Shown in pieces: positions 5,566-64,000 of a DNA stretch of 64,000 nt. Source of the DNA: Sphingobacteriales bacterium (GTDB lineage Bacteria; Bacteroidota; Bacteroidia; Chitinophagales; Chitinophagaceae); contig JAAXIF010000018.1 in the NCBI GenBank assembly GCA_012270485.1, forward strand, positions 57,674 through 121,673. Reading direction: 5' to 3'. A program made the position numbers and the translations under genes. The notes beneath the pieces are model-generated. The model was not told the origin of the DNA. It made no database searches and worked only from the letters and a program-made list of their open reading frames with translations. Positions within the stretch are counted from its first letter, which is position 1. Each line of letters opens with the position of its first letter.

Positions 5566-5982
5566 AATTTTCTTTTACTACATCAAAACTACCAGCTATT
5601 ACTTTGTTAGCCAACCGCATAATAATGTTAGGGTAGTCCATGGCTTATGGTTCATAGTCGATAGTAAAGAAAGTAATAATCATTAAATACTATGGACTAT
5701 TGACCATGGACGATGAACTAGATCCATGGTCTATTAAAGTTACTACTCTAAGCCCCTGCTTCAAAATATTTACATCGAAAACCACATACTTATGTCATGT
5801 GTTTTTAACAGCAAAATCAGGCATTTGGCTGACAGACGGTGATTAATGCGGATAGAATGTGATGAATGTTAAAACAAGTAGGCTGCAACACAATTGGGGT
5901 ACTTTTTTTCACATGGAAATGCGGTTGAATAAGGGTTTTTATCGATGCATTTTTTGCACCATCAAATTAAAACAATCAGCAC
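5566..5982. other. Intergenic stretch with ATGGAC-type repeats
   Basis: No gene seen. Bases 5640-5740 carry several degenerate copies of CCATGGACTATGG / CTATGGACTATTGACC words on both strands, a repeat style also found near 27810-27853 and 30990-31010. The remainder is A+T-rich and probably contains the leader of the small ORF at 5983. Confidence 0.45.
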
Positions 5983-48444: not shown

Positions 48445-49602
48445 ATGAACCGAATACATTTATCGCCATTTTTATTGTTAGGAGAAGAGAGAATTGGATT
48501 AAACTATCCCCCTGATGCCATAATAACCGGATTAATTAAGTCATTAAAGGACGTTCGTTGGAGCCGTGAAAAAAATGGTTGGCACATTCCGTGTAATAAA
48601 CCCGCTTATGAAGCTTTGGTAGACAAGCTGATGGGGATTGCTACAGTGGAGAATGCAGAATTAAGAAAATACCTTGAGCAGCGAAAAATTATAGTAAAGC
48701 AAAATCAAAATAAGTTGTCGTCGGGGACGCATAAAATGATGCTAAATCATCCCTTATCCGTTCCCAACCTTAGCGCGTATGAAAAATTCAGAGACATGCT
48801 GGTGCTGAAAGGGTATAGCGCCAATACTATTCGAAACTATAGTAACGAGTTTCATCAACTTTTGAGGGTTTTAGGTAATAAACCGGCTGATACATTAAAT
48901 AAAGAGCAACTTCTTTCTTATTTATTATGGCTATTGAAAGAAAAAGGCTGTAGCGAAACGCAAGTTCATACGGCAGTCAATGCAATAAAGTTTTATTATG
49001 AACAAGTTTTGGGGAGAGATAAAGAACTTTATGATTTACCACGCCCGAAGAAGGCCTTTACCTTGCCGGATATTTTAGCAGAAGAAGAGATTGTGGAATT
49101 AATTCACGCGATACCCAATATAAAGCATCGATCTATGATAATGATTGCCTATTCTGCCGGATTGAGGGTAAGCGAAATTGTGAAGTTGCGAATTACTGAT
49201 ATTGACAGTAAACGAATGATGATTCATTTACGAGCCGCTAAAGGTAAAAAAGATAGGATGGTTACTTTATCAAAAAAAATACTAGCTGTTTTACGCGAAT
49301 ATTTTTTGCTCTATAAACCCAGGATATATTTATTTGAAGGCCAAAATGGTGGCGAGTATAGTGTCAGGAGTGTTCAAAAAATAGTACAGGATGCTAAAAT
49401 AAGAGCCGGCATTACAAAGAAGGGGGGAGTACACAGTTTAAGGCATAGCTACGCTACTCATCTATTAGAAGCAGGAACCGACATTCGAATCATTCAAGAA
49501 TTATTAGGACATAACAGTATTAAGACAACCATGTTGTACACCCATGTTGCGAATAAAATAATGAGCAAAATTGAGAGTCCTCTAGATAAATTAGATTGGT
49601 GA
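48445..49602 (+). CDS. Integron-like tyrosine recombinase (cassette integrase)
   Basis: 385 residues. An 85-residue N-terminal extension (ALKDVRW-like text: SLKDVRWSREKNGWHIPCNK) precedes a core-binding SAM-like domain (YEKFRDMLVLKGYSANTIRN) and the catalytic domain. All active-site residues are present: Arg in SAGLRVSEIV, Lys in GKKDR, HSLRHSYATHLLEAG (HxxR), ELLGHNS and the nucleophile Tyr in TTMLYTHV. The ending IESPLDKLDW resembles integron integrases, but the stretch between the Lys and HxxR motifs is about 30 residues shorter than in class 1 IntI, so the additional IntI domain is absent. It lies just before a cassette array on the same strand. Confidence 0.9.
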   Translation: MNRIHLSPFLLLGEERIGLNYPPDAIITGLIKSLKDVRWSREKNGWHIPCNKPAYEALVDKLMGIATVENAELRKYLEQRKIIVKQNQNKLSSGTHKMMLNHPLSVPNLSAYEKFRDMLVLKGYSANTIRNYSNEFHQLLRVLGNKPADTLNKEQLLSYLLWLLKEKGCSETQVHTAVNAIKFYYEQVLGRDKELYDLPRPKKAFTLPDILAEEEIVELIHAIPNIKHRSMIMIAYSAGLRVSEIVKLRITDIDSKRMMIHLRAAKGKKDRMVTLSKKILAVLREYFLLYKPRIYLFEGQNGGEYSVRSVQKIVQDAKIRAGITKKGGVHSLRHSYATHLLEAGTDIRIIQELLGHNSIKTTMLYTHVANKIMSKIESPLDKLDW

Positions 49603-49724
49603 CTACTATTTCGCTTTTTCGACCACATCAACCCAAAAAACGAAATCATAAATAGTTGCTTATGAATACATATTTCCATTTTTTTTGTTACTTTTTATGA
49701 GCGAGGAATTGCGTACTTTTATTG
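49603..49724 (+). other. Inferred attI-like primary integration site region
   Basis: 122 bases between the integrase stop and the first crossover point G^TT at 49724/49725. It is A+T-rich with no ORF; it contains TTTTTTGTTAC and GCGAGGAATTGCG words. Classical attI sites lie here relative to cassette 1, but the exact recombinase-binding boxes cannot be fixed by eye. Confidence 0.6.
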
Positions 49725-50724
49725 TTAGCTGCCAGCAGTAACAACCTACTATGTTTGGACTATTTTCAAAGAAAAATAATAATGAATGCCCGATAGACTC
49801 TGAGATGCGACTCTGGATGGAAAATTCTTTCTTGTGGTTGGCAACACAGTTTGGACACGACAACATTGCTACAAAACCAATACTTCTTCCTACACCTGAA
49901 CACTTCCCAATTCGCTTTGACGGCTCAAAAGAATCATTGACAAAGACCGCAGAGATTGTAGCTCGTCAAATGGAGATTGACATCAATGAAATTAACCTTG
50001 ATACTTATGAGCAAAACATTCAAGAGTTTAGTGGCGGCTTTGGACATAGAATCTGGACAGAGGTTGACAAGGACAATGATGAAAAAATGGCTGCGGGTTT
50101 ATACTTTGACAAAAACGAACAAGGTAAATACGACATCCTAATTGAGAAAAAGAATTTAACCGATCCCGAAAATCTTACAGCAACCCTTGCCCATGAGTTT
50201 TCACATATTAAAATTTTAGGTGAAAAAAGACTTGATTTCAATGACGAACAGCTAACCGATTTGACACCTGTTGTTTTTGGTTTAGGCATCTTTAATGCAA
50301 ACTCTGCATACAAAGAATGGAAGTCATTTGACAGTTACGGACACAACAGCATCGGTTATTTAAAACAAAGAGAATGGGGTTACGCTTTAGCACTTTATGC
50401 CTTTTTCAGACAAGAAGAAAATCCCGACTGGATAAAGTTCCTGACACCTAACATAAAATCAGACGTTAAAAAAAGTTTGGACTTTATCTATGCCAACACT
50501 GACAAAGTTTTTATTGAAGAATATAAAGGCGGCAGCTAACAGGCAGTTTTGCGTCAGCAGGGGCGACGAATAAATCCTCATCTTAGTGCTACTATCAGCT
50601 ACATATCCGGCTGACCGAACACGAATGAGCAACAGAATATGTTTTCAACTTTTGTAACTTCGGTCGGCTGCAGTTCCGGGCTAGACGTTTTCCAAATGCC
50701 CTGCCGAACGCAAAGCTGTGGCCG
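49725..50724 (+). mobile_element. Gene cassette 1 (1000 bp)
   Basis: It starts right after G49724 (TTAGCTGCC...) and ends at G50724. Its first bases with the preceding G, GTTAGCTGCC (49724-49733), are the exact reverse complement of GGCAGCTAAC (50531-50540), the left arm of the attC-like site at its end. This is the signature of a cassette that was once a circle. It carries one gene (49751-50539). Confidence 0.9.
49751..50539 (+). CDS. Zincin-like (HExxH) protein in cassette 1
   Basis: 262 residues, no signal peptide. A zinc-metallopeptidase helix LTATLAHEFSHIKILGEKRL lies near residue 145 (HExxH). A possible third ligand is in the following DEQLTDLTP. The C-terminal part has aromatic helices (YLKQREWGYALALYAFF). 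The start is 26 bases inside the cassette, as usual for integron genes. I do not recognise the family. A role as a toxin, a phage-response protein or a metal-dependent hydrolase is possible; none can be claimed. The coding text is A-rich like cassette 2. Confidence 0.7.
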   Translation: MFGLFSKKNNNECPIDSEMRLWMENSFLWLATQFGHDNIATKPILLPTPEHFPIRFDGSKESLTKTAEIVARQMEIDINEINLDTYEQNIQEFSGGFGHRIWTEVDKDNDEKMAAGLYFDKNEQGKYDILIEKKNLTDPENLTATLAHEFSHIKILGEKRLDFNDEQLTDLTPVVFGLGIFNANSAYKEWKSFDSYGHNSIGYLKQREWGYALALYAFFRQEENPDWIKFLTPNIKSDVKKSLDFIYANTDKVFIEEYKGGS

Positions 50725-50732
50725 TTATAGCC
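50531..50732 (+). repeat. attC-like recombination site 1 (end of cassette 1)
   Basis: Large imperfect inverted repeat. The left arm is GGCAGCTAAC then AGGCAGTTTTGCG; the right arm is CGCAAAGCTG-TGGCC-GTTATAGCC. Inner stem CAGTTTTGCG (50544-50553) / CGCAAAGCTG (50709-50718) is 9 of 10. A second stem is AGCAGGG / CCCTGCC. The outer arms do not match each other (GGCAGCTAAC against GTTATAGCC): the right outer part belongs to cassette 2. Conserved words inside are GACGAATAAATCCTCATC and GTTCCGGGCTAGACGTT. The gene's stop codon lies in the left arm. Crossover point G50724^T. Confidence 0.88.
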
Positions 50733-50934
50733 AATGGTAGGACGACCGTGCAAACGACAAACGACCGACCAAAATTTAAACGTTCAAACAAAGACAAACC
50801 ATTTTGACAGGTGACCAACATACAGACCATATTTCTAACGGACAACGAGTAAGCCGACACTCATTGCCAACGCTTCAGTATTTTTTATTTTCCCCACCGC
50901 ACATTTTTTTTAATTCAATTTTAGCCAACCGCAC

Positions 50935-50998
50935 ATTTGGCACATTTGGTTTTGCCCGACACACAAGCCGACCCTTCGCAAAACCAAAAGAGCCAAAT
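50935..50998 (+). repeat. ACAT/AAGA structured element, copy 1
   Basis: Outer stem ATTTGGC / GCCAAAT, internal loop ACAT (50942-50945) opposite AAGA (50988-50991), inner stem TTGGTTTTGC / GCAAAACCAA (10 of 10), and a 22-base C/A-rich loop with ACACAAGCCGACCC. It lies in the untranslated left part of cassette 2. See the finding on all four copies. Confidence 0.8.
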
Positions 50999-51088
50999 TT
51001 TCCCACCCACAGAAAGAAATTTTCAGAGCGACACACTTTGGCGTTTCATGCTTCTACTTTTGTTGCAGAAATTAGAAACAAAGAAAGT

Positions 51089-52237
51089 ATGCAAACAAAT
51101 AATTTAACACTTAGCCCAACAACTGACAGACCTTTTGAACTTGCTAATACATCAGCAAAAATGACTATTTCAGAAGTTTTTGCAGAACGGAAGGGTTCAT
51201 ACTTAAACGAGTTTACTCTTTTTGTTGCTCACTTTAATTCAATCCCAAACTTTATTCATGAAGTTGACATTGACTGCAAAAAAGCCAACAACTGGTTTTC
51301 TGAAAAATACAAATCAGAAATAAAAGACTTCTATTATGACAAACGATATTTCAACAGAAGTAAAAAAGCTGAGATAGATGATATTTTTTATTTCCTCTAT
51401 GATGATTTAATTGTTGACTTTGACACAAACTGTTCAACAGTTCGTTTTTTATTCCGTAAAACCGACCTTTCAAAAGTTGAAGACATTATAAATTCAATCC
51501 ACAAATTCAAGAAAAGGAAACAAAAACAAAAACCCGAAATATCATTGCTTGTAAATAGCATGACAGGCATTGAAACAAAATCTTTGCAAATTACTAAGCC
51601 TAAATTAAGTATCGAAGACAACTATAACGAAGACTTTAAGGAAATACATGGAACTATATTAAAAAGACTTTCTCGCAAAAACGATAAAGGATTAGTGTTA
51701 CTTCATGGCAAACCTGGAACAGGAAAAACTTCATACATCCGTTACTTAATTGCTTCTCTAAAAAAGGATGTTATTTTCTTGCCTCCAAATATGGCAAGTG
51801 CCATTACAAACCCCAGTCTTATTTCAATTCTCATAGACAATCCAAATTCAATTTTTGTAATTGAAGATGCAGAAAACATTGTAGTTGACAGAGAAAAGGA
51901 CGGCAGTTCTCCAGTTTCGGCATTATTAAATATTTCTGACGGCTTACTTGCCGACTGTTTGAACGTTCAAATAATTTGTTCGTTCAATACTGACATTTCA
52001 AAAATTGATAGTGCCTTGATGAGAAAAGGACGATTGATTGCAAAGTATGAATTTAAAGAATTGGAAGTTGAAAAGGCACAACTGCTTTCAAATAAATTAG
52101 GCTTTGATACAAACATCAATAGTCCAATGACTTTAACATCAATATACAACCAAGACGAAAAAGATTTTCAACAATCAAGAACAAGCAATCCAATAGGATT
52201 TAAAGCAATAAACAATAACAGGTTAGCCGAAAACTGA
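51089..52237 (+). CDS. AAA-family ATPase, first gene of cassette 2
   Basis: 382 residues from ATG 51089 (MQTNNLTLSP). A start far upstream is excluded because it would translate the ACAT/AAGA element. The N-terminal 180 residues are helical and unrecognised (FTLFVAHFNSIPNFIHEVDI). The AAA core follows: Walker A LLHGKPGTGKTSYIRYL at about 205, Walker B-like IFVIEDAENI, a sensor 1 Asn (CSFNTDI) and arginine finger candidates in SALMRKGRLIAKYEF. This is a BCS1/FtsH-like AAA fold. The RBS region is AGAAACAAAGAAAGT. It is likely the motor or sensor part of the cassette-2 system. Confidence 0.8.
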   Translation: MQTNNLTLSPTTDRPFELANTSAKMTISEVFAERKGSYLNEFTLFVAHFNSIPNFIHEVDIDCKKANNWFSEKYKSEIKDFYYDKRYFNRSKKAEIDDIFYFLYDDLIVDFDTNCSTVRFLFRKTDLSKVEDIINSIHKFKKRKQKQKPEISLLVNSMTGIETKSLQITKPKLSIEDNYNEDFKEIHGTILKRLSRKNDKGLVLLHGKPGTGKTSYIRYLIASLKKDVIFLPPNMASAITNPSLISILIDNPNSIFVIEDAENIVVDREKDGSSPVSALLNISDGLLADCLNVQIICSFNTDISKIDSALMRKGRLIAKYEFKELEVEKAQLLSNKLGFDTNINSPMTLTSIYNQDEKDFQQSRTSNPIGFKAINNNRLAEN

Positions 52238-52269
52238 ACAGAGTAGGCATTAAAATAAAAAAGTAAAAC

Positions 52270-52569
52270 ATGATTTCAGATGTAAGAGAAAAAGGAAGCC
52301 TCATTGAAGTTTTTGATGCAAACAGCAAAAGAATTTCATACATGAGTGCAGGAAGCAAAGAACTTGTAGGAGTTGCAAGCAACTTCTTTGTTATTATCAA
52401 CGGTTCACTAATTGAAGTGTATGATGAAAAATGCAAACGTATTTCATACATGAGCCAAGGAAGCAAGATTGTAAGAGGTGCAGCAGGAAATACGTTTACA
52501 GTTAAAAACGGAAGCCTTATTGAAACCTATGATGATAATTGCAAAAGAATAAGTTACAAAAGTGCTTAA
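52270..52569 (+). CDS. Three-repeat beta protein
   Basis: 99 residues made of three copies of a 33-residue unit: GSLIEVFDANSKRISYMSAG, GSLIEVYDEKCKRISYMSQG and GSLIETYDDNCKRISYKSA, joined by V(A/G)xNxFxVxNG linkers. Each would form a small beta-blade. No catalytic residues are present; it may be a binding module. It lies between the AAA gene (32 bases behind) and the exonuclease (8-base overlap), so it belongs to the same operon. Confidence 0.75.
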   Translation: MISDVREKGSLIEVFDANSKRISYMSAGSKELVGVASNFFVIINGSLIEVYDEKCKRISYMSQGSKIVRGAAGNTFTVKNGSLIETYDDNCKRISYKSA

Positions 52570-53056
52570 TTCTTACACCGCCATAGATTTTGAAACCGCA
52601 CAAGGCAAGCGTTGGAGCATTTGTCAAGTTGGATTGGTTCGTGTAGAAAATCAAATTATTACAGAGCAGCTATCAATTTTGGTTCAACCACCTGATAATT
52701 ATTATTGGAATAACTTCATTGATATTCACGGAATTTCTCCCAAACAAACGGCAGATGCACCAACATTTGATAAAATTTGGTATCAAATTGAGCCATTCAT
52801 CAAGAATCAAAATGTTGTTGCTCATAACGGTTTTGCGTTTGACTTTCATTGCTTAAAGCAAACTTTAGGTTACTATGAAATTTCATCGCCTGAATTTACT
52901 GGACATTGCACCTATCGTATTTTTGGAGATAATCTAGCGTCACTTTGTAACCAATATAAAATCAACTTAAATCATCATGATGCTTTGAGTGATGCTAAAG
53001 CTTGTGCAGAACTGTTTTTAATACATTTGAAGGAAAATAATGAATATGGAGCATAA
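52562..53056 (+). CDS. DEDDh 3'-5' exonuclease (DnaQ fold)
   Basis: 164 residues, GTG start that overlaps the preceding stop. The motifs are complete: YTAIDFETAQGKRWSICQVG (DxE), VVAHNGFAFDFHCLKQTL (ExoII Asp) and HHDALSDAKACAELF (H...D, ExoIII). This DnaQ/PolC epsilon-like exonuclease acts on single-stranded or mismatched DNA or RNA. It overlaps the first DUF262 gene by 17 bases (start at 53040), implying translational coupling. Confidence 0.9.
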   Translation: MLNSYTAIDFETAQGKRWSICQVGLVRVENQIITEQLSILVQPPDNYYWNNFIDIHGISPKQTADAPTFDKIWYQIEPFIKNQNVVAHNGFAFDFHCLKQTLGYYEISSPEFTGHCTYRIFGDNLASLCNQYKINLNHHDALSDAKACAELFLIHLKENNEYGA

Positions 53057-54737
53057 CAATATATCAATTAGGACTATAAACGATTTGCTGAAAAACAACT
53101 TTTTTATACCATCCTATCAAAGAGGTTATCGTTGGACAGAACAACAAGTGACAGAATTATTGAATGACATCAATGAATTTTCTCCAAAGGAAATTGAAAA
53201 TTCAAATGAAAAAACATGGTATTGCTTACAGCCGATTGTGGTAAAGAAAAAAGATGATAATGAGTGGGACGTAATTGATGGACAACAAAGGCTCACGACA
53301 ACTTTTTTAATCTTACATCATTTAAATCAAGGCTATGTTGAAAACCGTAGAAAGAAATTATTTGGCTTAAAATACGAAACAAGAGAAAATTCAGCCGACT
53401 ATTTACAAAAAGAATTAAACGGAGAAACGATAAACGACACAAACATTGATTATTATTTTATTTCTTCTGCTTACAAAACAATTTGTGATTGGTTCAAAAA
53501 CAAAGGAGAGCAATTTGATGTAAATACATTTGAATCAAAATTCAACTTTTCTACAAAAGTTATTTGGTATGAAACTTCGGCAAAAGATGATTCTATTGAT
53601 ATTTTCACGAGGATAAATAGCGGTAAAATTCCACTAACAAATGCTGAATTGATTAAGGCTTTGTTTTTAAATAGTTCAAATTTCGCAAAAGCAGACAGCG
53701 AAAAACTACGTTTGAAACAATTAGAAATTGCTTCAGAATGGGACAGAATTGAATATGCCTTACAAGACGATTCTTTTTGGTATTTCATCAACAAAAATGA
53801 AAATACCTTGGCAACGAGAATAGAGTTTATTTTTAATTTAATGTCAGACAAGCCAAGTGATGACAAGTATTCCACTTTCCATTTCTTTAATGAAAAATTT
53901 AAAACCAAATCAGAAAAAGAAATAAACGACAATTGGCAGGAAATTAAAAAGTATTTCCAAACTCTTGAAGAGTGGTATAATGACAGAGAATTATATCACA
54001 AAATTGGTTATCTAATTGCGATTGGAACAAACATCAAAAACATTCTTAAAGAGAAAAAAGAAAAATCAAAAACGAAGTTTTCATATTGGATAGACCAAGA
54101 AATAGAATCCAAATTTAAAAATGTGAATTTGGAAGAAGTCGAATATAACGGAAAATATGTTCGTGAAATTTTATTGCTTCACAACATACAAACTATGCTC
54201 AACAACGAAAACGAAACTAATCGTTTCCCTTTTGACCGTTACAAAAAAGAATCTTGGGACGTTGAACACATTCACGCTATCGCAACAGAAGTTAATGTGA
54301 AAATAGAAAATCAAATTGACTGGCTAAAAAACAACTTCATTAAAACAGACAATCATCACAACGAGGAGTTAAATAATCGAATTGAATTCATAAAATCAGG
54401 CAACACAATTGATGAAAATGAATTTGAAGACATTGTTGACTATGTATTGGGCGAAGAAGATAATAGCTTACGAAACCTGTGTTTATTAGATAGTGGAACT
54501 AATCGTTCTTACAAAAACGATTCTTTCAAAGAAAAAAGAAAGAAAATAATTGAAAGAGAAATTGAAGGAACTTTTATTCCCATTTGCACAAAAAATGTTT
54601 TTATGAAATATTATACAGCAAACGTGAAAGACATTGAAGTTTGGAATGAAAACGATAGAACTTCATATTTTGAAAAAATACAAAAAGTAATAAATCAGTA
54701 TTTACCTCAAATGACATTGGCAGAAAATGAGCAATAA
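53040..54737 (+). CDS. DUF262 + HNH (DUF1524) protein, GmrSD-like
   Basis: 565 residues. The ParB-like NTPase N-terminus has FFIPSYQRGYRWTEQQV and WDVIDGQQRLTTTFLIL. The GIP-type inner motif is IDIFTRINSGKIPLTNAE, as in GmrS-like DUF262 domains. The C-terminus (from about 410) has the HNH-type DUF1524 pattern: KESWDVEHIHAIA and LRNLCLLDSGTNRSYKNDSF with EKRKK. GmrSD proteins are type IV restriction enzymes that use NTP to cleave modified DNA. It overlaps the next gene by 11 bases (54727-54737). Its role against phage is inferred from the family. Confidence 0.88.
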   Translation: MNMEHNNISIRTINDLLKNNFFIPSYQRGYRWTEQQVTELLNDINEFSPKEIENSNEKTWYCLQPIVVKKKDDNEWDVIDGQQRLTTTFLILHHLNQGYVENRRKKLFGLKYETRENSADYLQKELNGETINDTNIDYYFISSAYKTICDWFKNKGEQFDVNTFESKFNFSTKVIWYETSAKDDSIDIFTRINSGKIPLTNAELIKALFLNSSNFAKADSEKLRLKQLEIASEWDRIEYALQDDSFWYFINKNENTLATRIEFIFNLMSDKPSDDKYSTFHFFNEKFKTKSEKEINDNWQEIKKYFQTLEEWYNDRELYHKIGYLIAIGTNIKNILKEKKEKSKTKFSYWIDQEIESKFKNVNLEEVEYNGKYVREILLLHNIQTMLNNENETNRFPFDRYKKESWDVEHIHAIATEVNVKIENQIDWLKNNFIKTDNHHNEELNNRIEFIKSGNTIDENEFEDIVDYVLGEEDNSLRNLCLLDSGTNRSYKNDSFKEKRKKIIEREIEGTFIPICTKNVFMKYYTANVKDIEVWNENDRTSYFEKIQKVINQYLPQMTLAENEQ

Positions 54738-56922
54738 TCCGACATCAAAAAAAATAAATTTTCTGCAATTGGTTTCTAACGAAGAAGCTATATATGAAAA
54801 TGAAACTTGGCAACCGCTGAGTAAAATTGAAATTCCAATTATACAACGAGATTACGCTCAGGGTAGAGAAGGAAAAGAAGAACTAAGAGAAAACTTCTTA
54901 AAGTTTTTACTTGAAGCAGTTAATGGAACACCAAAGGAATTGGATTTTGTTTATGGTAGCGTAAGAAATAAAATTTTACAACCGCTTGACGGACAACAAA
55001 GATTAACAACATTGTTTTTGTTGCATTGGTTTGTTGCAGTTAAAGAAAACAAGTTAAATGATGAATTAAAATTTCTATTGACAAAATTCACTTACGAAAC
55101 ACGAACAAGTTCACGAGAATTTTGTATTGACTTAATCAACAAAGGAATTATTTACAATCCCGAACAAAATATTTCTACACTTATCATTGATAGCTCTTGG
55201 TTTTTTCTTTCGTGGAAAAGAGACCAGACCATAAAATCAATGTTGACAATGTTAGATGACATTCAGCAAACATTTCAAAATGAAACGGAAGTTTGGGACA
55301 AACTAAACAAAATTAGTTTTCACTACATAGAACTGCAAAACTTCGGACTTTCAGATGATTTGTATATCAAAATGAATGCAAGAGGTAAAGCACTTACTGA
55401 TTTTGAAAATTTTAAAGCCAAGTTTGAACAACATATAAACAAAGAGGGTTGGGAAAGCAATGCAGAAGCAACCGAAACATTTTCACATCAAATTGATACA
55501 CTTTGGACAGATTTGTTTTGGAATTATCGTGATAATACCGAAAATGTTTTTGACGAACAGCTTTTGAATTTTTTCAGAACAATGGCTGTAATAAATTACA
55601 CACTAAAAGCCCCAAAAGACGATAAATTCAGACGCATAATTGATTTATTGAGAGGTGGTCAAAAAGTTTCATTCAATCAATATTTGGACTTAGGCTGTTT
55701 TGATGAGGATTATTTTACAACGTTGAAATTCGTTTTAAATAAAATATCTGATAAAAGCGGATTGAAGACATTTCTTTCTGACACGACTTATGCAGATGAA
55801 AAAGACATTTTCAACGGTGCAATTAAAAACAATTTAGGCTATGCCGAACTATTGAAATTATTTGCTTTATACCAATATTTATCTTGTGAAAATGATATTG
55901 ATAAAGTGAATCTGCAAAATTGGTTGAGAATAGTCCGAAATTTTGTTGAAGCACATAGATTGTATTATGACAATGCAAATACATTTGCAGATTCACTATT
56001 GTTTTTATCAAAGATCATTCCGGTTAGAAATAACATAGTTGAATATTTTAAAGATTCCGTAAATCCAGAAGATAAAGGCTTTCCAAAATTCATAATTGAA
56101 GAAGAAAAGACAAAAGCGAATCTTATTTTACAAAATGATGATTGGAGAAACGCAATTATTGAAATTGAAAATCACGGTTATTTCAACGGACAAATCGGCT
56201 TTATTTTAGATTGGTGTAAAGACGAAAACGGAATATACAATATTGATAAATTCAAAGAATACGCAGAAAAAGCAAAAGCCGTATTTAGTAATGACGGATT
56301 GAAAAACTTTGACAATTATCTTTTTGAAAGAGCCTTGTTGGCAACAGGAGATTATTTGTTGAGTATTGGTAGAAATTATAGTTTTTTAATCAGCAAAGGA
56401 CGTAATGAACGTGATATTAGTTGGAAAAGGTTATTAAGAGATGATAACAATCAACGCAAAGTTTTAAAATCATTATTTGATAATATCAATCCAACGACTT
56501 TGTTTCAAGATTTAGAAAAAATCATTGTAGATTTTTCAGACAAAAATGATTGGCGTTATTACTTCGTTAAACAGTTTGAAATGATTGACAATTGCGGAAG
56601 TCAAAAACTTGCACGCTTTAATGACAACAATGAATTTGATATTCTTTTATTAGGTTCAACCATGACAAGCGGTTTTCATAAGGAGTATTATTCTTATTCT
56701 CTTTTCGTGGAATTGAAAGAAAAACTTTCGTTAGACGAGAGCTCATACAAAGACCAAAAATCGGTTGATTATTGGAAATACTTTGAATTAAACGGACAGC
56801 AAGTCGCATTTGATTGCAAAACAGGAAAATACATTTGGACACAAAACAACGATTGGGACAATCCACAAGAATATGACGATAGAGAAATAGTAATATTTGA
56901 ACTAACTGGAGAAAGCTACTAA
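54727..56922 (+). CDS. Second DUF262 protein, no HNH domain seen
   Basis: 731 residues. N-terminal DUF262: EIPIIQRDYAQGREGKEELR, LDFVYGSVRNKILQPLDGQQ and RLTTLFLLHWFVAV, then YIKMNARGKALTDFENFKAK. The rest, about 450 residues, is helical with a C-terminal (DKNDWRYYFVKQFEMIDNCG) region of unknown fold; no HNH or nuclease motif could be found by eye. Large DUF262 proteins act as partner subunits in two-protein systems. It overlaps the HNH-bearing partner by 11 bases and the WYL gene by 1 base (TAATG). Confidence 0.82.
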   Translation: MSNNPTSKKINFLQLVSNEEAIYENETWQPLSKIEIPIIQRDYAQGREGKEELRENFLKFLLEAVNGTPKELDFVYGSVRNKILQPLDGQQRLTTLFLLHWFVAVKENKLNDELKFLLTKFTYETRTSSREFCIDLINKGIIYNPEQNISTLIIDSSWFFLSWKRDQTIKSMLTMLDDIQQTFQNETEVWDKLNKISFHYIELQNFGLSDDLYIKMNARGKALTDFENFKAKFEQHINKEGWESNAEATETFSHQIDTLWTDLFWNYRDNTENVFDEQLLNFFRTMAVINYTLKAPKDDKFRRIIDLLRGGQKVSFNQYLDLGCFDEDYFTTLKFVLNKISDKSGLKTFLSDTTYADEKDIFNGAIKNNLGYAELLKLFALYQYLSCENDIDKVNLQNWLRIVRNFVEAHRLYYDNANTFADSLLFLSKIIPVRNNIVEYFKDSVNPEDKGFPKFIIEEEKTKANLILQNDDWRNAIIEIENHGYFNGQIGFILDWCKDENGIYNIDKFKEYAEKAKAVFSNDGLKNFDNYLFERALLATGDYLLSIGRNYSFLISKGRNERDISWKRLLRDDNNQRKVLKSLFDNINPTTLFQDLEKIIVDFSDKNDWRYYFVKQFEMIDNCGSQKLARFNDNNEFDILLLGSTMTSGFHKEYYSYSLFVELKEKLSLDESSYKDQKSVDYWKYFELNGQQVAFDCKTGKYIWTQNNDWDNPQEYDDREIVIFELTGESY

Positions 56923-57839
56923 TGTCAAAACGAGGCTACATATCAAGATACCTGCTTATTCTCAAAAAGTTGAAAGTAAAACCTTATTCAACTTATGAGG
57001 AATTACAAGCCTATATTGAAAATCAGTTTGACTATCTGCAAATGCAAGACGATAATTTGCAAATAGGTTTTTCAAAACGAACCTTGCAACGTGATATAAA
57101 GGAAATCAGAAACGTATTTGGAATTGACATTGAGTATTCAAAATCTCAAAAGGGCTATTTCATCAGCCAAAATGAAAATGAAAACATGAATTTTCAAAGA
57201 ATGATGGAGGCATTTGATATGTTTAATTCTCTAAACCTTGCACAAGACTTAACACCTTTTATTCATTTGGAAAAACGCAGACCGCAAGGAACAGAGAATT
57301 TATATGGTTTGCTTCATGCCATTAAAAACAGACTTCAAATCAAGTTCAATTATCAGAAATTTTGGGAAGAAGAATTAAGCCAGCGTTTTGTAGAGCCTTA
57401 TGCCTTAAAGGAGTTTAAGAACCGTTGGTATATCATGGCAAAAGATAGTAAGGACAACAACATAAAGAGTTTTGCACTTGACCGTTTGACAAACCTTGAA
57501 ATAACAAATCAAACATACCAGTATCCCGATAATTACAGCATTGAGCAAAGTTACCGCTACTGCTTTGGTATTATTAGCCCAAATGACGAAGAGCCGCAAG
57601 ACATCATTCTATCATTTGACCCATTTCAAGGTAAGTATATCAAGACACTTCCATTACACAACACTCAACAAGTATTGGTGGACAATGACGAAGAAATGAA
57701 AATTAAACTTAAACTTTGCCTGACACATGACCTTGTAATGGAACTACTTTCTTTCGGTGACAACATGAAAGTTATTGAACCTAAATCGTTGGCTGACCAA
57801 ATTAAACAAGCGCATGAAAAAGCGTATAGACAATATTAA
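56922..57839 (+). CDS. WYL-domain transcriptional regulator
   Basis: 305 residues. N-terminal helix-turn-helix-like part (YLLILKKLKVKPYSTYEELQ, SKRTLQRDIKEIRNVFGI). A WYL domain follows from about residue 130: IKFNYQKFWEEELSQRFVEP, YALKEFKNRWYIMAKDSKD and FALDRLTNLEITNQTYQ, ending with a WCX-type C-terminus. WYL regulators often control phage-defence operons such as BREX and DUF262 systems. It is the last gene of the operon, 1-base overlap with the DUF262 gene; the S2 element begins 13 bases past its stop. Confidence 0.88.
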   Translation: MSKRGYISRYLLILKKLKVKPYSTYEELQAYIENQFDYLQMQDDNLQIGFSKRTLQRDIKEIRNVFGIDIEYSKSQKGYFISQNENENMNFQRMMEAFDMFNSLNLAQDLTPFIHLEKRRPQGTENLYGLLHAIKNRLQIKFNYQKFWEEELSQRFVEPYALKEFKNRWYIMAKDSKDNNIKSFALDRLTNLEITNQTYQYPDNYSIEQSYRYCFGIISPNDEEPQDIILSFDPFQGKYIKTLPLHNTQQVLVDNDEEMKIKLKLCLTHDLVMELLSFGDNMKVIEPKSLADQIKQAHEKAYRQY

Positions 57840-57851
57840 AAGCCATCGCAC

Positions 57852-57920
57852 AGGTGTAAGCACATTTGCAAGCCACGCAAGCCCAAGCACAGTCCAAAGC
57901 TTGCAAAAGAGCTTCCACCT
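57852..57920 (+). repeat. ACAT/AAGA structured element, copy 2
   Basis: Outer stem AGGTGTAAGC / GCTTCCACCT (9 of 10), ACAT (57862-57865) opposite AAGA (57907-57910), inner stem TTGCAAGC / GCTTGCAA (8 of 8), 25-base loop with CACGCAAGCCCAAGCACAG. It is near the right end of cassette 2, just behind the WYL gene. Confidence 0.82.
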
Positions 57921-58068
57921 TTCCAACGCGGACAAAATTGAATTTAAAAAAATCTCCTCCCCTTCTAAAAATAAAAAATACGCAACCGCACAGACCAACA
58001 CGACAAAGACAATGACGGTGAAACGCAACAACGACAATGGTTTGCAAGGACGGACGACAAGAACCACT

Positions 58069-58203
58069 GGCTATAACAGCGGTTTTGCAAAAAAGCGGGT
58101 TCAGTGGTTAATTGAACATTCTACCTCGCATCAACTTTTGTGGTATGTTGACAGTTTTGAGCTCCGAAATCCGCTTCTTCGCAAAGCCGCAAAACGTTGT
58201 ACG
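58069..58203 (+). repeat. attC-like recombination site 2 (end of cassette 2)
   Basis: Left arm GGCTATAAC-A-GCGGTTTTGC (58069-58088), right arm GCAAAGCCGC-AAAAC-GTTGTACG. Stem GCGGTTTTGC / GCAAAGCCGC is 9 of 10, with the single wobble at the same place as in site 1. A second stem AGCGG / CCGCT lies inside. Left and right outer arms do not match each other; the right belongs to cassette 3. The central block GTTAATTGAACATTCTACCT differs from sites 1 and 3. Crossover G58196^T. Confidence 0.9.
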
Positions 58204-58276
58204 TCACCCTAACGAACTTCCTGCTAACATTCATCATTCCGACAAATACAAAAATCAGCCGACCCGACCCTACGCT

Positions 58277-58341
58277 ATTTTTAGCACATGGCAAGGCACA
58301 CAAACCCCGACACAAAGCCAACCTTGCCAAGAGCTAATAAT
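58277..58341 (+). repeat. ACAT/AAGA structured element, copy 3
   Basis: Outer stem ATTTTTAGC / GCTAATAAT (8 of 9), ACAT (58286-58289) opposite AAGA (58329-58332), inner stem GGCAAGG / CCTTGCC (7 of 7), 25-base loop with CACACAAACCCCGACACAAA. Near the left end of cassette 3. Confidence 0.82.
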
Positions 58342-58554
58342 GCCAAGGCCCCATGCCCACCCACCACCCAGCGGACTGAATTCTTATCGGCATCTCCTTA
58401 AATATGAAAAAATTACTACCATCAGCAACCCACAATATTTTACAACATCCTCCCATTGCGACTTTCCAATGTTTTCAACATAAAGTGTATAACAACTTGC
58501 CCCAATTTTAAATTTAGGTTATTATTTTACACCACATTTTGGTTGACAATTCGC

Positions 58555-58712
58555 CACAAGCGGATTTCATTAAAAGGGAATCAAGTTTAAGTCTTGAACT
58601 ATCCCCGTAGCTGTAAGCTCCACCAAAGTTGTTTAATCCCCATGCCACTGTCATTTTGGACGGGAAGGCTTTAAACAATGGAGCAAGTCAGAAGACCTGC
58701 CAGAATCAAACA
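58555..58712 (+). promoter_or_regulatory. Cobalamin (AdoCbl) riboswitch upstream of nrdBA
   Basis: Class of B12 aptamer recognised from its conserved cores: AAAAGGGAATCAAG (58572-58585), ATCCCCGTAGCTGTAAGC, ATGCCACTG, GGGAAGGC and AGTCAGAAGACCTGCC. Downstream GCTTTCGGGTGAAAGGC (58725-58741) forms a hairpin that could block expression when B12 is bound. The first gene, nrdB, starts at 58836. Such elements normally repress B12 synthesis or transport; before a class I ribonucleotide reductase the logic is repression of the B12-independent enzyme while B12 lasts, as known in Streptomyces. Confidence 0.88.
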
Positions 58713-58835
58713 TTTAGTAACAACGCTTTCGGGTGAAAGGCATGGTACTGACAGTCTTCGCTGCTTCATGCGGCTCATTCTTTCAGCACTATATTTTTCT
58801 CCTGTAGCTAAAAATTTTTGAAACAAATATTGATT

Positions 58836-59807
58836 ATGGTACATACAGAAGAAATACTTTTAAAAGAAAATAAAGACCGCTTTGTTATCCTGCCAATTAA
58901 TTACCCAAAAATTTGGGAACAATACAAAAGACATGAAGCCAGCTTTTGGACAGCCGAAGAAATTGATTTAAGTGGCGACTTAAAAGATTGGGCTGCACTA
59001 AATGATGGAGAACGCCATTTTATCTCTCATGTGTTAGCCTTTTTTGCTGCAAGTGATGGCATCGTAAATGAAAATCTTGCGGTAAACTTTATGAGTGAAG
59101 TGCAATTACCCGAAGCCAGATGCTTTTATGGTTTTCAGATAATGATGGAAAATATACACAGCGAAACCTACGCTTTGCTTATTGACACTTACATCAAAGA
59201 CCCACAAGAAAAACATAAACTATTTCATGCTATTGACACTGTACCAGCAGTAAAGAAAAAAGCAGAATGGGCTTTGCGTTGGATTGACAATGGAAATTTT
59301 GCTGAACGCCTTGTTGCATTTGCAGCAGTAGAAGGAATATTTTTTAGCGGCAGTTTCTGTTCTATTTTCTGGATGAAAAAAAGAGGCTTAATGCCGGGGC
59401 TTACGTTCAGTAATGAATTAATAAGCCGTGATGAAGGTTTACATTGTGAGTTTGCTTGTCTACTTTATAGTATGCTGCAAAACAAATTGTCAGAAAAAAA
59501 AGTCCAGGATATTATTGCCGATGCTGTAACAATAGAAAAGGAATTTATTACTGAAGCATTACCTGTTGATTTAATTGGTATGAACGCTAAATTGATGCAA
59601 CAATACATTGAGTTTGTTGCAGACCGTTGGCTAAGTGAATTAGGTTGTACAAAAATTTACAACGCCACCAATCCATTTGACTTTATGGAAATGATTTCAT
59701 TGCAAGGCAAAACAAACTTTTTTGAAAAAAGAGTTGGCGATTATCAAAAAGCTGGAGTAATGGGTAATAAAGAAACTCAAGTATTTTCAACTGAAGAAGA
59801 TTTTTGA
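58836..59807 (+). CDS. nrdB: Class I ribonucleotide reductase small subunit
   Basis: 323 residues from ATG 58836 ([14 protein letters not shown]); the TTG six codons upstream is less likely. Radical-generating beta subunit. Iron ligands and the radical Tyr are in [20 protein letters not shown] (ExxH and the Tyr after SET). Further ligands are in [20 protein letters not shown] and [13 protein letters not shown] (ExxxH region). The C-terminus ([12 protein letters not shown]) should bind the alpha subunit. Eukaryotic-like class Ia type. It is 25 bases ahead of nrdA; both are behind the riboswitch. Confidence 0.96.
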
Positions 59808-59832
59808 ACAACATTAAATATATACTACACCC

Positions 59833-62232
59833 ATGTTTGTAATAAAAAGAAACGGTAAGCAGGAATCTGTAAAATTTGACAAAGTAACCGCAAGAATTGA
59901 AAAATTAAGTTACAGTTTAAGCCCAATGGTGAATGTAATTGATGTTGCAAAGAAAACCATTGAAGGTATTTATGCAGGCGTGCCGACAACAGAGCTGGAC
60001 AACCTTGCAGCAGAAACAGCAGCATCGCTTACTATCACACATCCCGACTATGCAATACTTGCGTCAAGAATTGCAGTAAGCAACCTGCATAAGAATACCA
60101 TTAAAAGTTTTTCTGCAACAATGCAAAGGCTTTATAATTATACAGATGCTGCAACAGGAAAAAAATTACCACTAATAGCAGATGATGTGATGCAGATAAT
60201 TGAAGAACATGCAGAGTTACTGGACAGCACCATTATTTACGACAGAGATTTTGGTTTTGACTATTTTGGTTTTAAAACTTTGGAAAAATCGTACCTGCTA
60301 AAAGTTGATGGAAAAATTGCAGAACGTCCGCAACACATGTATATGAGAGTTGCAATAGGCATACACAAAGAAGATATTGAGAGTGCCATAAAAACATATC
60401 ACTTAATGAGTGAACGATGGATGACACATGCCACACCAACATTGTTTAATGCAGGTTCTCCTAAACCTCAAATGAGTTCATGTTTTCTTTTAACAATGAA
60501 AGAAGATAGCATTGACGGCATTTACGACACACTAAAACAAACAGCAAAAATTTCTCAAAGTGCTGGTGGTATTGGTTTAGCCATTCACAATATCAGAGCC
60601 ACAGGCAGTTATATTGGCGGCACAAATGGAACAAGCAACGGCATTATTCCAATGCTCCGTGTATTTAATGATACTGCCAGATATGTTGACCAAGGTGGCG
60701 GAAAACGCAAAGGTGCTTTTGCTATTTACTTAGAGCCATGGCATAGTGATGTATTTGAGTTTTTAGATTTAAGAAAAAATCATGGTAAAGAAGAAATGAG
60801 GGCAAGAGATTTATTTTTTGCTTTATGGATTTGCGATTTGTTTATGAAACGGGTGGAAGCAAATGGTGATTGGAGTTTGTTTTGCCCCAATGAGGCACCG
60901 GGGTTAAGTGAGTGTTGGGGTAAAGAATTTGAAACGCTTTACGTTAAATATGAAGCTGAAGGCAAAGCAAGAAAAACAGTGAAAGCACAGGATTTGTGGT
61001 TTGCGATTTTACAATCACAAATTGAAACAGGTACACCCTACATGTTATATAAAGATGCTGCAAACAGTAAAAGTAATCAGCAAAATCTAGGCACAATTAA
61101 AAGCAGTAATCTTTGTACTGAAATAATGGAATATACCAGCCCTGATGAAGTGGCAGTTTGTAATTTAGCTTCATTGGCATTACCCCGTTTTGTTATTGAT
61201 GGAAAGTTTGACCAGCAAAAACTATATGAAGTAACTTATCAAGTAACAAAAAACCTCAACAAAATAATTGACAATAATTACTACCCAATAGAAGAGGCAA
61301 GAACTTCCAATATGAAGCACCGCCCAATTGGTTTGGGTGTGCAGGGCTTAGCAGATGTATTTATTTTATTGCGTTTGCCATTCGAAAGTGAGTTGGCAAA
61401 ACTGTTAAATAAAAATATTTTTGAAACCATCTACTTTGCGGCAATGACAGCCAGTAAAGATTTGGCAAAAGAACAAGGTGCTTATGAAACCTTTGTAGAT
61501 TCGCCAGTTTCAAAAGGTATTTTTCAATTTGATATGTGGGGTGTAACACCAACTGACTGTTGGGATTGGGCTTTGCTAAAAGAAGAGGTAAAACAATACG
61601 GAGTACGTAATTCGCTTTTATTAGCGCCTATGCCTACTGCTTCTACGTCACAAATATTTGGCAACAACGAATGTTTTGAGCCGTATACAAGCAATATTTA
61701 TACAAGAAGGGTTTTAAGCGGTGAATTTATAATCGTAAATAAACATCTCTTAAAAGACTTAGTGAATTTAGGATTGTGGAATAACAGTATGAAAAATAAA
61801 ATTATTGCTGCCAATGGTTCTATCCAAAACATTGCAGAAATACCAACCGACATAAAAGAATTATACAAAACAGTTTGGGAAATAAAACAACGCAATATTA
61901 TTGATATGGCAGCTGACAGAGGGGCATACATTTGTCAATCCCAATCGTTGAATTTATTTGTTGACAACCCAAATACTTCTAAACTTACTTCTATGCACTT
62001 TTACGCATGGAAGAAAGGTTTAAAAACTGGCATGTATTATTTGCGTACACAAGCCGCCACACAAGCTGTTCAATTTACAGTAGAAAAGCAAGGTAGCAAT
62101 GAAATAAGCCCTGTAGTTCCATCAACAGAAATAGTAAATCAACAACCACAAATAAATAATGATGTGGAGCCAACGCAAACTGATGCCCCAAGTTGCAATA
62201 TGGAAGATGGTTGTATTAGTTGTGGTTCGTAA
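59833..62232 (+). CDS. nrdA: Class I ribonucleotide reductase large subunit
   Basis: 799 residues. ATP-cone N-terminus ([20 protein letters not shown]) for allosteric activity control. Active site: the first redox Cys in [23 protein letters not shown] (substrate Asn, thiyl Cys, Glu) and the second redox Cys in [35 protein letters not shown] is the conserved substrate-binding loop; C-terminal shuttle cysteines are in DGCISCGS. The chain is complete. It makes dNDPs for DNA synthesis with NrdB. It is oxygen-dependent, so the riboswitch implies that the host has another, B12-dependent enzyme elsewhere. Confidence 0.97.
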
Positions 62233-62241
62233 AATAAGCAA

Positions 62242-62685
62242 GTGAAAATAAGAAATCTCATAGTTGCTTTTTGGCTATTGGTATCGGCTTGTCATACGAC
62301 TGCCAAAATTAGCCAGCAAACATTAAAGCAGATGCCATCTGCCTTACTTGGAAACTTTAAAGATGATTACGGAAGCAGCTATATTATTACAAACAAAGAA
62401 TGGGTGCAAGGTAAAAGCATAAAGTATCACTTGTTACAGTACAACAAGGCTGAAAATTTTTTTATTGCAAAGAATGATGAAGCTAATCCTTCGGACGGTG
62501 GGCTGTACACAAGGATAGACATAATGTATTTTGAAAACATGAAACCCTGGCATTGGGGTTATTGCCTTACTACATATAAAGCAAGTACTATGGAGGAAGC
62601 AATGAATACAGCAACGGCAGATAGGATTAACCCCCGTAAAGGATGTAATGGTTATCCATTTTCAAGGATGAAACGAACTGATTAA
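62242..62685 (+). CDS. Small lipoprotein of unknown function
   Basis: 147 residues from GTG, lipobox LLVSACHTT. The mature part contains GNFKDDYGSSYIITNKEWVQ, LLQYNKAENFFIAKND and WHWGYCLTTYKA with a second Cys. No family is recognised. It is 9 bases behind nrdA, so it is co-transcribed and possibly riboswitch-controlled. A link to dNTP metabolism is not visible. Confidence 0.65.
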   Translation: MKIRNLIVAFWLLVSACHTTAKISQQTLKQMPSALLGNFKDDYGSSYIITNKEWVQGKSIKYHLLQYNKAENFFIAKNDEANPSDGGLYTRIDIMYFENMKPWHWGYCLTTYKASTMEEAMNTATADRINPRKGCNGYPFSRMKRTD

Positions 62686-62696
62686 AACTAATAACT

Positions 62697-63158
62697 ATGG
62701 CACATCCACTTTTATGCTGGGATATATGTTTAGAAGGATTGCACAGAAGAATGCAATTAGCCAATGACTTGAGAATAATGCAAAGTATAATGAATGCAGG
62801 TAACTGGCATAAACCCCTCGTTTCTCTTGACAATACATTGGTTTGGGAAAACAAAGTGATTATTATTACGGATACGAAACTCAATATCATTCATGCTACT
62901 GAAAATATATTTGCCATGAATGGTTACAGACAGGAGGATGTAATTCACAAAAAGCCCACAATGTTTCAAGGTGCTAAAACTGAAATTATAGAAAGAGAAA
63001 AAATTAAAATAGCGGTTGATAAACAAAACCCATTTAAAAGTATCATTACAAATTATAAAAAAGACGGGAGTATTTACAAATGCCAAATTGAAGGTTATCC
63101 TGTCTTCAACAAAAAAGGGAATTTAGTAAACTTCATTGCAATTGAAAATGTTGCATAA
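62697..63158 (+). CDS. PAS-domain protein, LOV-like without the photoactive Cys
   Basis: 153 residues, cytoplasmic. After 45 residues comes a PAS domain (VIIITDTKLNIIHATENIFA, MNGYRQEDVIHKKPTMFQGA, then FKSIITNYKKDGSIYKCQIE and GYPVFNKKGNLVNFIAIE). The MNGY..EDV...PTMFQG line is built like the LOV motif NCRFLQG, but the reactive Cys position is Lys or Pro. So it is probably not a light sensor; it could bind another ligand. No output domain is attached. It is located between the lipoprotein and thioesterase genes, all on one strand. Confidence 0.75.
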   Translation: MAHPLLCWDICLEGLHRRMQLANDLRIMQSIMNAGNWHKPLVSLDNTLVWENKVIIITDTKLNIIHATENIFAMNGYRQEDVIHKKPTMFQGAKTEIIEREKIKIAVDKQNPFKSIITNYKKDGSIYKCQIEGYPVFNKKGNLVNFIAIENVA

Positions 63159-63542
63159 ATGATGAACGAAGAAAAAATTGAAAAATCAATCACAAGAATA
63201 TTTAAAGCTGTATTTCCCGACAGTACAAATCATTATGACACTTTATTTGGTGGGACAGCAATGCACTTGATGGATGAAGTGGCTTTTATAACTGCAACCC
63301 GTTACAGCAGACAAAAAATGGTAACTGTTAGCAGCGACAGAATAGATTTTAAAATGCCCATACCTGCAGGAACTATAATAGAGTTGGTTGGTAAAGTATC
63401 TTATACCGGCAATACGAGCTTAAAAGTAAGAGTTGATATTTTTGTTGAACAGATGTATTCTAACGACAGACAAAAAGCAGTAAGCGGAGAGTTTACATTT
63501 GTTGCTATTGACGACAATAAAAAGCCAACGAAAATCAATTGA
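63159..63542 (+). CDS. YciA-type acyl-CoA thioesterase
   Basis: 127 residues with the hot-dog fold. FPDSTNHYDTLFGGTAMHLM carries the conserved HYDTLFGG, followed by DEVAFITATRYSRQKMVTVS with the likely catalytic Asp/Glu. Later IDFKMPIPAGTIIELVGKVS and VSGEFTFVAIDDNKKP are present. It hydrolyses acyl-CoAs in the cytoplasm. It starts right at the PAS stop codon (ATGATG after TAA) and ends the operon in cassette 3. Confidence 0.88.
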   Translation: MMNEEKIEKSITRIFKAVFPDSTNHYDTLFGGTAMHLMDEVAFITATRYSRQKMVTVSSDRIDFKMPIPAGTIIELVGKVSYTGNTSLKVRVDIFVEQMYSNDRQKAVSGEFTFVAIDDNKKPTKIN

Positions 63543-63597
63543 CCAAACACACAATGACAAAAGGACAATAAGCGAAGTCTCCAATAGCCAACGCCGC

Positions 63598-63665
63598 AAG
63601 GCAAGCACATTGGCAGGCACACAAAACCCACAGCACAGAAGCCAACCTGCCAAAGAGCTTGCCTT
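63598..63665 (+). repeat. ACAT/AAGA structured element, copy 4
   Basis: Outer stem AAGGCAAGC / GCTTGCCTT (9 of 9), ACAT (63607-63610) opposite AAGA (63653-63656), inner stem TGGCAGG / CCTGCCA (7 of 7), 28-base loop with CACACAAAACCCACAGCACA. Near the right end of cassette 3. Confidence 0.82.
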
Positions 63666-63745
63666 CTTGCTCGGCTTGGGTAACAGTCTTTAGGTTGACA
63701 CAGTTAAAATGCAACACTCTACTACTGGACAGAGAAAAGGGCGAA

Positions 63746-63945
63746 CGTACAACAGGGGGTTTGCTGCTATACTGGCGGACGAACATATCCTCATCTTTTT
63801 GTTCGCTATCAGCACCAGTTCCAGCCGACGTAATTCTATTTGGCTTTTAGTTGTTAACTTCAACTACATATTTGCAATCATCAGGGGTTCCGGGCTGGAC
63901 GTTCAATGAATACCAGCACAGCAGCAAGCCCTGTCCGTTAGCTGT
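63746..63945 (+). repeat. attC-like recombination site 3 (end of cassette 3)
   Basis: Left arm ACGTACAAC-AGGGGG-TTTGCTGC, right arm GCAGCAAGCCCTGTCC-GTTAGCTG. The stem TTTGCTGC / GCAGCAAG is nearly perfect, with the same T/C wobble as in the other two sites. Shared with site 1 are GACGAACATATCCTCATC and GTTCCGGGCTGGACGTT. The right outer part begins cassette 4. Crossover G63937^T. Confidence 0.87.
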
Positions 63946-64000
63946 TGTAAGCTCCCCTTTTTTTCGGGCCAGTTAAAAGTATAATTTTCTTTTTTCAGTT
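63938..64000 (+). mobile_element. Start of gene cassette 4, cut by the window edge
   Basis: TTAGCTGTTGTAAGC... begins the next cassette; no gene is seen in the remaining 63 bases. If the array continues, its closing site should carry a left arm complementary to GTTAGCTGTTG. Confidence 0.6.

Follow-up and report, generated by a model that had tools for sequence, protein, structure and literature searches.

Organization of the locus

The window considered here is a stretch of 64,000 nucleotides from the draft genome of a Sphingobacteriales bacterium (positions 57674-121673 of contig C78 in genome G000, an assembly of 4.04 Mb in 108 contigs). Its right-hand end carries a tyrosine recombinase gene, followed by a site that resembles the attI of integrons and by three gene cassettes, each of which terminates in a large hairpin site reminiscent of attC (Table 1). 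An initial annotation had described this region as an integron-like cassette array with split hairpin sites and borders at G^TT.

Table 1. Features of the recombinase and cassette region (window coordinates; ORF, open reading frame)
Feature	Coordinates	Strand	Basis or remarks
XerA/XerD-like tyrosine recombinase, 385 amino acids, predicted cassette integrase	48445..49602	+	Pfam PF00589, PF13495
attI-like primary site TGCGTACTTTTATTG^TT	49710..49726	+	related motif right before G^TT in relatives
Cassette 1, one ORF (49751-50539, 262 amino acids)	49725..50724	+	borders by arm match 7/7
attC-like site 1, long type	50524..50738	+	AAC 50538-50540, GTT 50724-50726
Cassette 2, 7472 bp	50725..58196	+	arm match 7/7
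AAA ATPase, cassette 2	50804-52237		
DEDDh exonuclease, cassette 2	52562-53056		
Two GmrSD-N (DUF262-type) proteins, cassette 2	53040-54737 and 54727-56922		
WYL regulator, cassette 2	56922-57839		
attC-like site 2, short type	58061..58212	+	AAC 58075-58077, GTT 58196-58198
Cassette 3, 5741 bp	58197..63937	+	same cassette in G017 and G037
Cobalamin riboswitch, cassette 3, upstream of nrdB	58523-58718	+	Rfam RF00174, 96.2 bits
Class I ribonucleotide reductase, cassette 3	NrdB 58818-59807, NrdA 59833-62232		
ORF without family, cassette 3	62242-62685		
PAS protein, cassette 3	62697-63158		
Thioesterase, cassette 3	63159-63542		
attC-like site 3, long type	63737..63953	+	AAC 63751-63753, GTT 63937-63939
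End of inserted element interrupting cassette 4 start, breaking contig	63946..64000	.	read by eye

All three of the inverted repeats with AAC...GTT ends that the initial annotation listed were re-found in the sequence, and at each of them the left arm is, as claimed there, the reverse complement of the start of its own cassette. For cassette 1 the pair is GTTAGCTGCC at 49724 and GGCAGCTAAC, for cassette 2 GTTATAGCCAATGG at 50724 and CCACTGGCTATAAC (13 of 14 bases), and for cassette 3 GTTGTACGT at 58196 and ACGTACAAC. Over the seven bases past the triplet, cassettes 1, 2 and 3 score 7/7, 7/7 and 6/7, values that arms paired at random from a pool of 113 sites rarely reach (6 or 7 matches in about 4% of pairs, all seven in 0.9%). 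The proposed cassette borders stand.

The hairpin sites of related genomes

Used as a DNA query, site 2 matches 31 of 120 related genomes, and the matches typically end near both arms. Profiles grown from sites 1 to 3 and run on 30 fetched genome stretches recovered 140 sites, 73 of the short and 67 of the long type and the window's three included, from 24 stretches in 17 genomes, the largest arrays being those of G037 (36 sites) and G017 (20 sites). The distance from AAC to GTT is exactly 124 nt in 31 of 56 short sites and exactly 158 nt in 21 of 55 long sites, with most of the other long sites at 184-194. Double changes were seen in 16 of 17 stem pairs among 48 short sites and in 12 of 16 among 31 long sites. 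These are hairpins with a conserved structure, a variable sequence and a G^TT crossover, as the sites of integrons are; the integron boxes are poorly represented, with GTTRRRY in 6 and RYYYAAC in 2 of 113 sites, and GTTR in 111. A search of Rfam with four sources returned no family that covers the sites.

Closure of cassettes on their own arms

Closure of a cassette was scored when 6 or 7 of the 7 bases past the triplet in the arm of its site matched its own start. The set comprised 113 sites, after 27 had been dropped as cut off, at stretch ends or without AAC or GTT, the last group including intron-bearing and N-masked sites. Closure was found in 70 of 93 adjacent pairs, as against a mean of 13.0 and a maximum of 24 in 5000 rounds of shuffling within arrays, and the two arms of one site match each other at this level in 9 of 113 cases. 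These closures support the integron-like reading, with its split hairpins and G^TT borders, well beyond the window. For 67 pairs in which the first nine bases (triplet included) are identical, the arm could be followed to about position 15: positions 11 and 16 are identical in only 1 and 4 pairs, and the positions between these mismatches pair in 47-58 of the 67. Folding a site with the start of its own cassette gains 6.6 kcal/mol on average and is better in 68 of 70 sites, and the bottom-strand hairpin is the more stable one in 61 of 70. The 70 closed cassettes have a median length of 1.13 kb (range 287-7472 bp), and in 68 of them the array strand carries the longest ORF, as it does the genes of integron cassettes; in one the longest ORF is on the opposite strand, and one has no ORF.

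Exchange of cassettes between species

At least one cassette has been exchanged between species. Among 299 relatives, full-length cassette 3 occurs only in G017 and G037, all other matches being partial and at most 83% identical. Across the three genomes the cassette shows 1, 1 and 0 differences over 5740 compared bases, where a 2-kb backbone gene is only 77-78% identical. On either side of the span from the first TT to the last G, the flanks are wholly different. Cassette 3 thus has other neighbors in the two other genomes and is cut at the G^TT borders that the initial annotation had predicted, which these genomes confirm to the single base, and the occurrence of the same cassette with exact borders in three array contexts backs the integron-like reading. 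Among further shared cassettes, one of 1110 bp is 100% identical between G037 and G064, and its ends lie at most 3 bases from the G in G037 and at the right-hand site in G064.

One alternative explanation holds that the hairpins are dispersed palindromic repeats and that the arrays grew by ordinary homologous recombination, and the many related copies per genome are what it would lead one to expect. It has next to no probability, however. The sites that flank the common cassette 3 in the three genomes are unrelated and of different type, and the cassette ends exactly at G^TT; site sequences vary while their arms track the cassette; and all sites of an array lie on one strand in 24 of 24 site-bearing regions. 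Ordinary repeats and homologous recombination are rejected because the borders of cassette 3 are exact.

An attI-like site beside the integrase gene

With a pattern that was drawn up after examples had been viewed, a motif like TGCGTACTTTTAAGTG^TT was found downstream of the integrase in 10 places in 8 genomes; a related motif also stands in loci L041 and L051. As in integrons, an attI-like site thus stands beside the integrase gene. Of the 8 places that have a first site, 6 show closure on it, and the two failures, at a second copy in G037 and at one in G064, are both followed by the same recurrent element. In several genomes this element, which starts GTTG(A/C)GGCGAAATTCGTCAGCTGATT, directly abuts the crossover of an attI or of a site (L042, L050, position 34759 of the G037 region, and after position 5807 in G064a), and it may be an insertion element with G^TT as its target.

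The attI-like site and the hairpin sites bear on a second alternative, in which double-stranded Xer-type exchange takes place at short identical cores, as in dif modules, and the hairpins are by-products such as terminators. The protein is indeed Xer-like and without a single-strand domain, and the sites would be suited as terminators. Ordinary double-strand tyrosine recombination uses a longer identical overlap, however, and it fits poorly here because GTT is all that the attI-like and hairpin sites have in common at the crossover. With arms that vary between cassettes yet are complementary within one, and with stems that covary, this alternative is judged quite unlikely.

Group II introns at the crossover point

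Ten copies of group II introns are present in sites of G037 and G064 (loci L069, L070, L073, L074 and L076-L078), all on the array strand. They are identified by Rfam, which in the scanned loci matches five copies of D1D4 and six of domain V, and by an ORF for a reverse transcriptase/maturase. Each copy immediately follows the C before the crossover, and is itself followed by TT in nine cases and by another copy in the tenth. Eight introns have a next listed site; five of these continue into an arm that closes on it, and a sixth closes on a site dropped from the closure set. Because of this position between C and TT, and because of the closing arms, the introns must be seen as interrupting the very crossover point, and as such they lend the integron-like reading further backing.

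A recombinase outside the IntI clade

The putative cassette integrase has an N-terminal extension of about 110 residues, and scores below cut-off with both of the relevant models: 200.1 bits against 265 for the curated IntI model TIGR02249, and 219.1 against 220 for the NCBIfam XerA equivalog NF040815. Residues R241, K266, H330, R333, H356 and Y365, which we take to be catalytic, are invariant in an 18-row alignment. The additional domain specific to IntI is absent: reference positions 287-309 are occupied by 23 residues in the window integrase and by 23-28 in 28 compared relatives, as against 65 in 9 of 9 IntI, and relative to IntI4 (2a3v) the window protein is shorter by a gap of about 43 residues. 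The closest solved relatives by sequence and fold are the XerA-type structures 5hxy and 4a8e. A structure model (predicted local distance difference test 84.5, predicted template modeling score 0.56, with a weak C-terminus) does not discriminate between XerA and IntI, which it matches to about the same degree. Among named integrases, the closest share 55-63% identity and are from Chitinophagaceae (Sediminibacterium, Ferruginibacter), which makes the host a likely member of this family. In at least 13 rows listed for relatives, the 3' end of the integrase gene is less than 500 bp from a contig end, as if assemblies broke where the first cassettes differ between cells.

In a tree of 55 recombinases, IntI form one clade (100/100), which does not include the relatives of the window integrase. 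The tree leaves convergence and ancestry undecided, because support is weak both for the unity of these relatives (43/24) and for the deep branching (70/68). The initial annotation is to be supplemented in that the recombinase is not an IntI. The system resembles an integron in its workings and is a non-member by the IntI definition, because its integrase scores below the TIGR02249 cut-off and lacks the integron-specific domain.

Distribution across the phylum

A covariance model of the short sites was run on 392 genomes drawn evenly from the phylum, and short-type sites were found in at least 188 of them, a lower bound because at most nine candidates were scored per genome. No short-type site was found in 33 genomes outside the phylum (reached through 33 of 39 loci titled as other phyla), an empty answer that says little alone. 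At thresholds of E 1e-50 for the window integrase type and E 1e-60 for classical IntI (TIGR02249), the two enzymes are present in 115 and 109 of the 392 genomes. Sites occur in 97 of the 115 genomes with the window integrase type and in 91 of the 277 without it (odds ratio 11, p 1.5e-21). Wherever a listed site falls within 30 kb of a listed integrase of this type, it is either downstream and on the integrase strand (17 genomes) or upstream and on the other strand (4 genomes), with no third arrangement. A scan of the loci around 80 named relatives, accepting model matches up to E 0.1, gave 41 matches in 20 loci, all with Bacteroidota titles, of which 38 are downstream on the integrase strand and 3 upstream on the other. 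Carriers include cultured strains such as Flavobacterium aciduliphilum DSM 25663 and Algoriphagus ornithinivorans DSM 15282. That relatives carry such sites downstream of the same integrase type again backs the integron-like reading.

A classical integron, whose IntI is encoded elsewhere or has diverged highly, would have the same attI, hairpin sites and G^TT logic, and IntI is common elsewhere in the phylum (above its model cut-off in 107 of 392 genomes, none of them site-bearing genomes of the window's own class). This is nevertheless very unlikely. A search with TIGR02249 at E 1e-60 found no match in the window's own genome, and a hidden classical IntI is rejected there; nor was there one in 78 site-bearing genomes, from its own genus up to its own class. 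Sites are depleted rather than enriched with IntI, being present in 39 of 109 genomes that have it and in 149 of 283 that do not (odds ratio 0.5). In ten genomes with both IntI and a listed site, no listed site is within 30 kb of the IntI, whereas in six of the ten a listed site is within 30 kb of a XerA-like gene. The rarity of the integron boxes likewise speaks against an IntI.

A proposed mechanism

The system is very probably a chromosomal platform for gene cassettes, integron-like in its operation and served by the XerA-like recombinase instead of an IntI. A cassette would exist as a circle with one hairpin site, whose left arm pairs with the start of the same cassette. The recombinase would fold one strand of the site, probably the bottom one, and join it to the attI-like site or to another site, the cut falling between G and TT. 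Once a cassette is integrated, the right half of the hairpin would come from the next one, and it is for this reason that arms would be mismatched in the array yet match the start of their cassette. On balance, a broader proposition is also favored, namely a phylum-wide form of cassette capture that is the Bacteroidota's own, with folded single-stranded hairpins as the substrate of a Xer-type recombinase that has no I2 helix.

Several points weigh against these proposals. Closure fails in 23 of 93 adjacent pairs, of which 12 are separated by more than 7.5 kb, by an intron or by a site dropped from the set, and 11 are unexplained; among model-found sites of named genomes, 12 of 21 pairs close. 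Short-type sites are missing from 18 of the 115 integrase-bearing genomes, and 91 of the 188 site-bearing genomes gave no integrase match at E 1e-50. That the bottom-strand hairpin is usually the more stable one is only suggestive. That the window protein is the catalyst, that its substrate is single-stranded DNA, and that cassettes form circles and are expressed, we infer from sequence. Passages of PMC9024848, PMC9668308, PMC8138268 and PMC7790495 treat the extra domain as an IntI hallmark that enables single-strand recombination, and structural work on IntI, as presented in part of PMC7790495, holds the extra helix (I2) to permit it. As it has no such helix, the window recombinase is an awkward candidate.

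Contents of the cassettes and continuation of the array

The product of the cassette 1 ORF has no match in Pfam, NCBIfam or PADLOC, and cassette 2 resembles a defence island. An Rfam match to the DUF805b RNA motif lies at 52217-52249 in cassette 2 (36.5 bits, cut-off 35.6), with two more in locus L069. In cassette 3, a cobalamin riboswitch precedes a B12-independent ribonucleotide reductase, which makes of this mobile cassette a self-regulated metabolic module. The idea that it represents an essential gene on a mobile cassette was rejected, because the same genome has further large-subunit matches on other contigs. Similar paired palindromes are found near both inner ends of the two large cassettes, at 50935-50998, 57852-57920, 58283-58335 and 63598-63665. 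Large cassettes of G017, G037 and G090 have related ones close to their ends, 106-237 bp past GTT and 114-188 bp before AAC.

The contig end coincides with window base 64000, and the array seems to continue past it on contig C82, behind an inserted element, which further supplements the initial annotation. Inverted ends TGTAAGCTCCCC and a 4-bp duplication, CTGT, match between the window end and the end of contig C82 (L218). This contig, probably the array's own continuation, carries a short and then a long site, of which the first closes on the last arm of the window and the second on the first. By eye, the predicted content of cassette 4 is an ArsR-like regulator and a transporter, and that of cassette 5 a Fic/Doc-like pair.

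Implications

No description of this system was found in those parts of the open-access literature that were searched, bioRxiv lying outside their reach. The phylum is regarded as poor in integrons: passages of PMC9024848 count a single complete integron found by IntegronFinder 2.0 in the Bacteroidetes besides those of Chlorobi and Ignavibacteriae. If the reading given here is true, a major phylum holds a large reservoir of mobile genes that has so far gone unlabelled, because search tools depend on attC models and the IntI domain, and whole metabolic modules, such as the B12-riboswitch-controlled ribonucleotide reductase, are carried between species. Passages of PMC7790495 see in the I2 helix the step that led from recombination of double strands to that of single strands, and note a lack of intermediates. 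Single-strand cassette recombination would then have been invented twice, or the present system would reflect a state that preceded the acquisition of I2; in both cases the view of I2 as the key step would need revision, and the origin of integrons would become directly testable.

Comparison with known systems

Among known systems, the sedentary chromosomal integrons are alike in having a tyrosine recombinase gene beside the array, a primary site, long arrays, hairpin sites whose halves come from neighboring cassettes, a G^TT crossover, and cassettes that mostly contain a single ORF, placed on the array strand. They differ in that the recombinase here lacks the IntI-specific domain and falls below the IntI model cut-off, and is usually read in the array direction; the sites here span 124, about 158 or about 188 nt from AAC to GTT, their arm is longer and has a constant mismatch, and their boxes are not GTTRRRY and RYYYAAC. 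XerA-type recombinases, known for chromosome resolution, are alike in sequence and fold (5hxy, 4a8e), with the NF040815 score just below cut-off, and differ from the window protein, which has an N-terminal extension and is accompanied by cassette arrays. The group II introns in the hairpin sites recall the group IIC-attC introns of attC sites, which passages of PMC7923331 place on the bottom strand at R''. Unlike these, the introns found here, assigned only to group II, occupy the right-hand crossover and are on the array strand.

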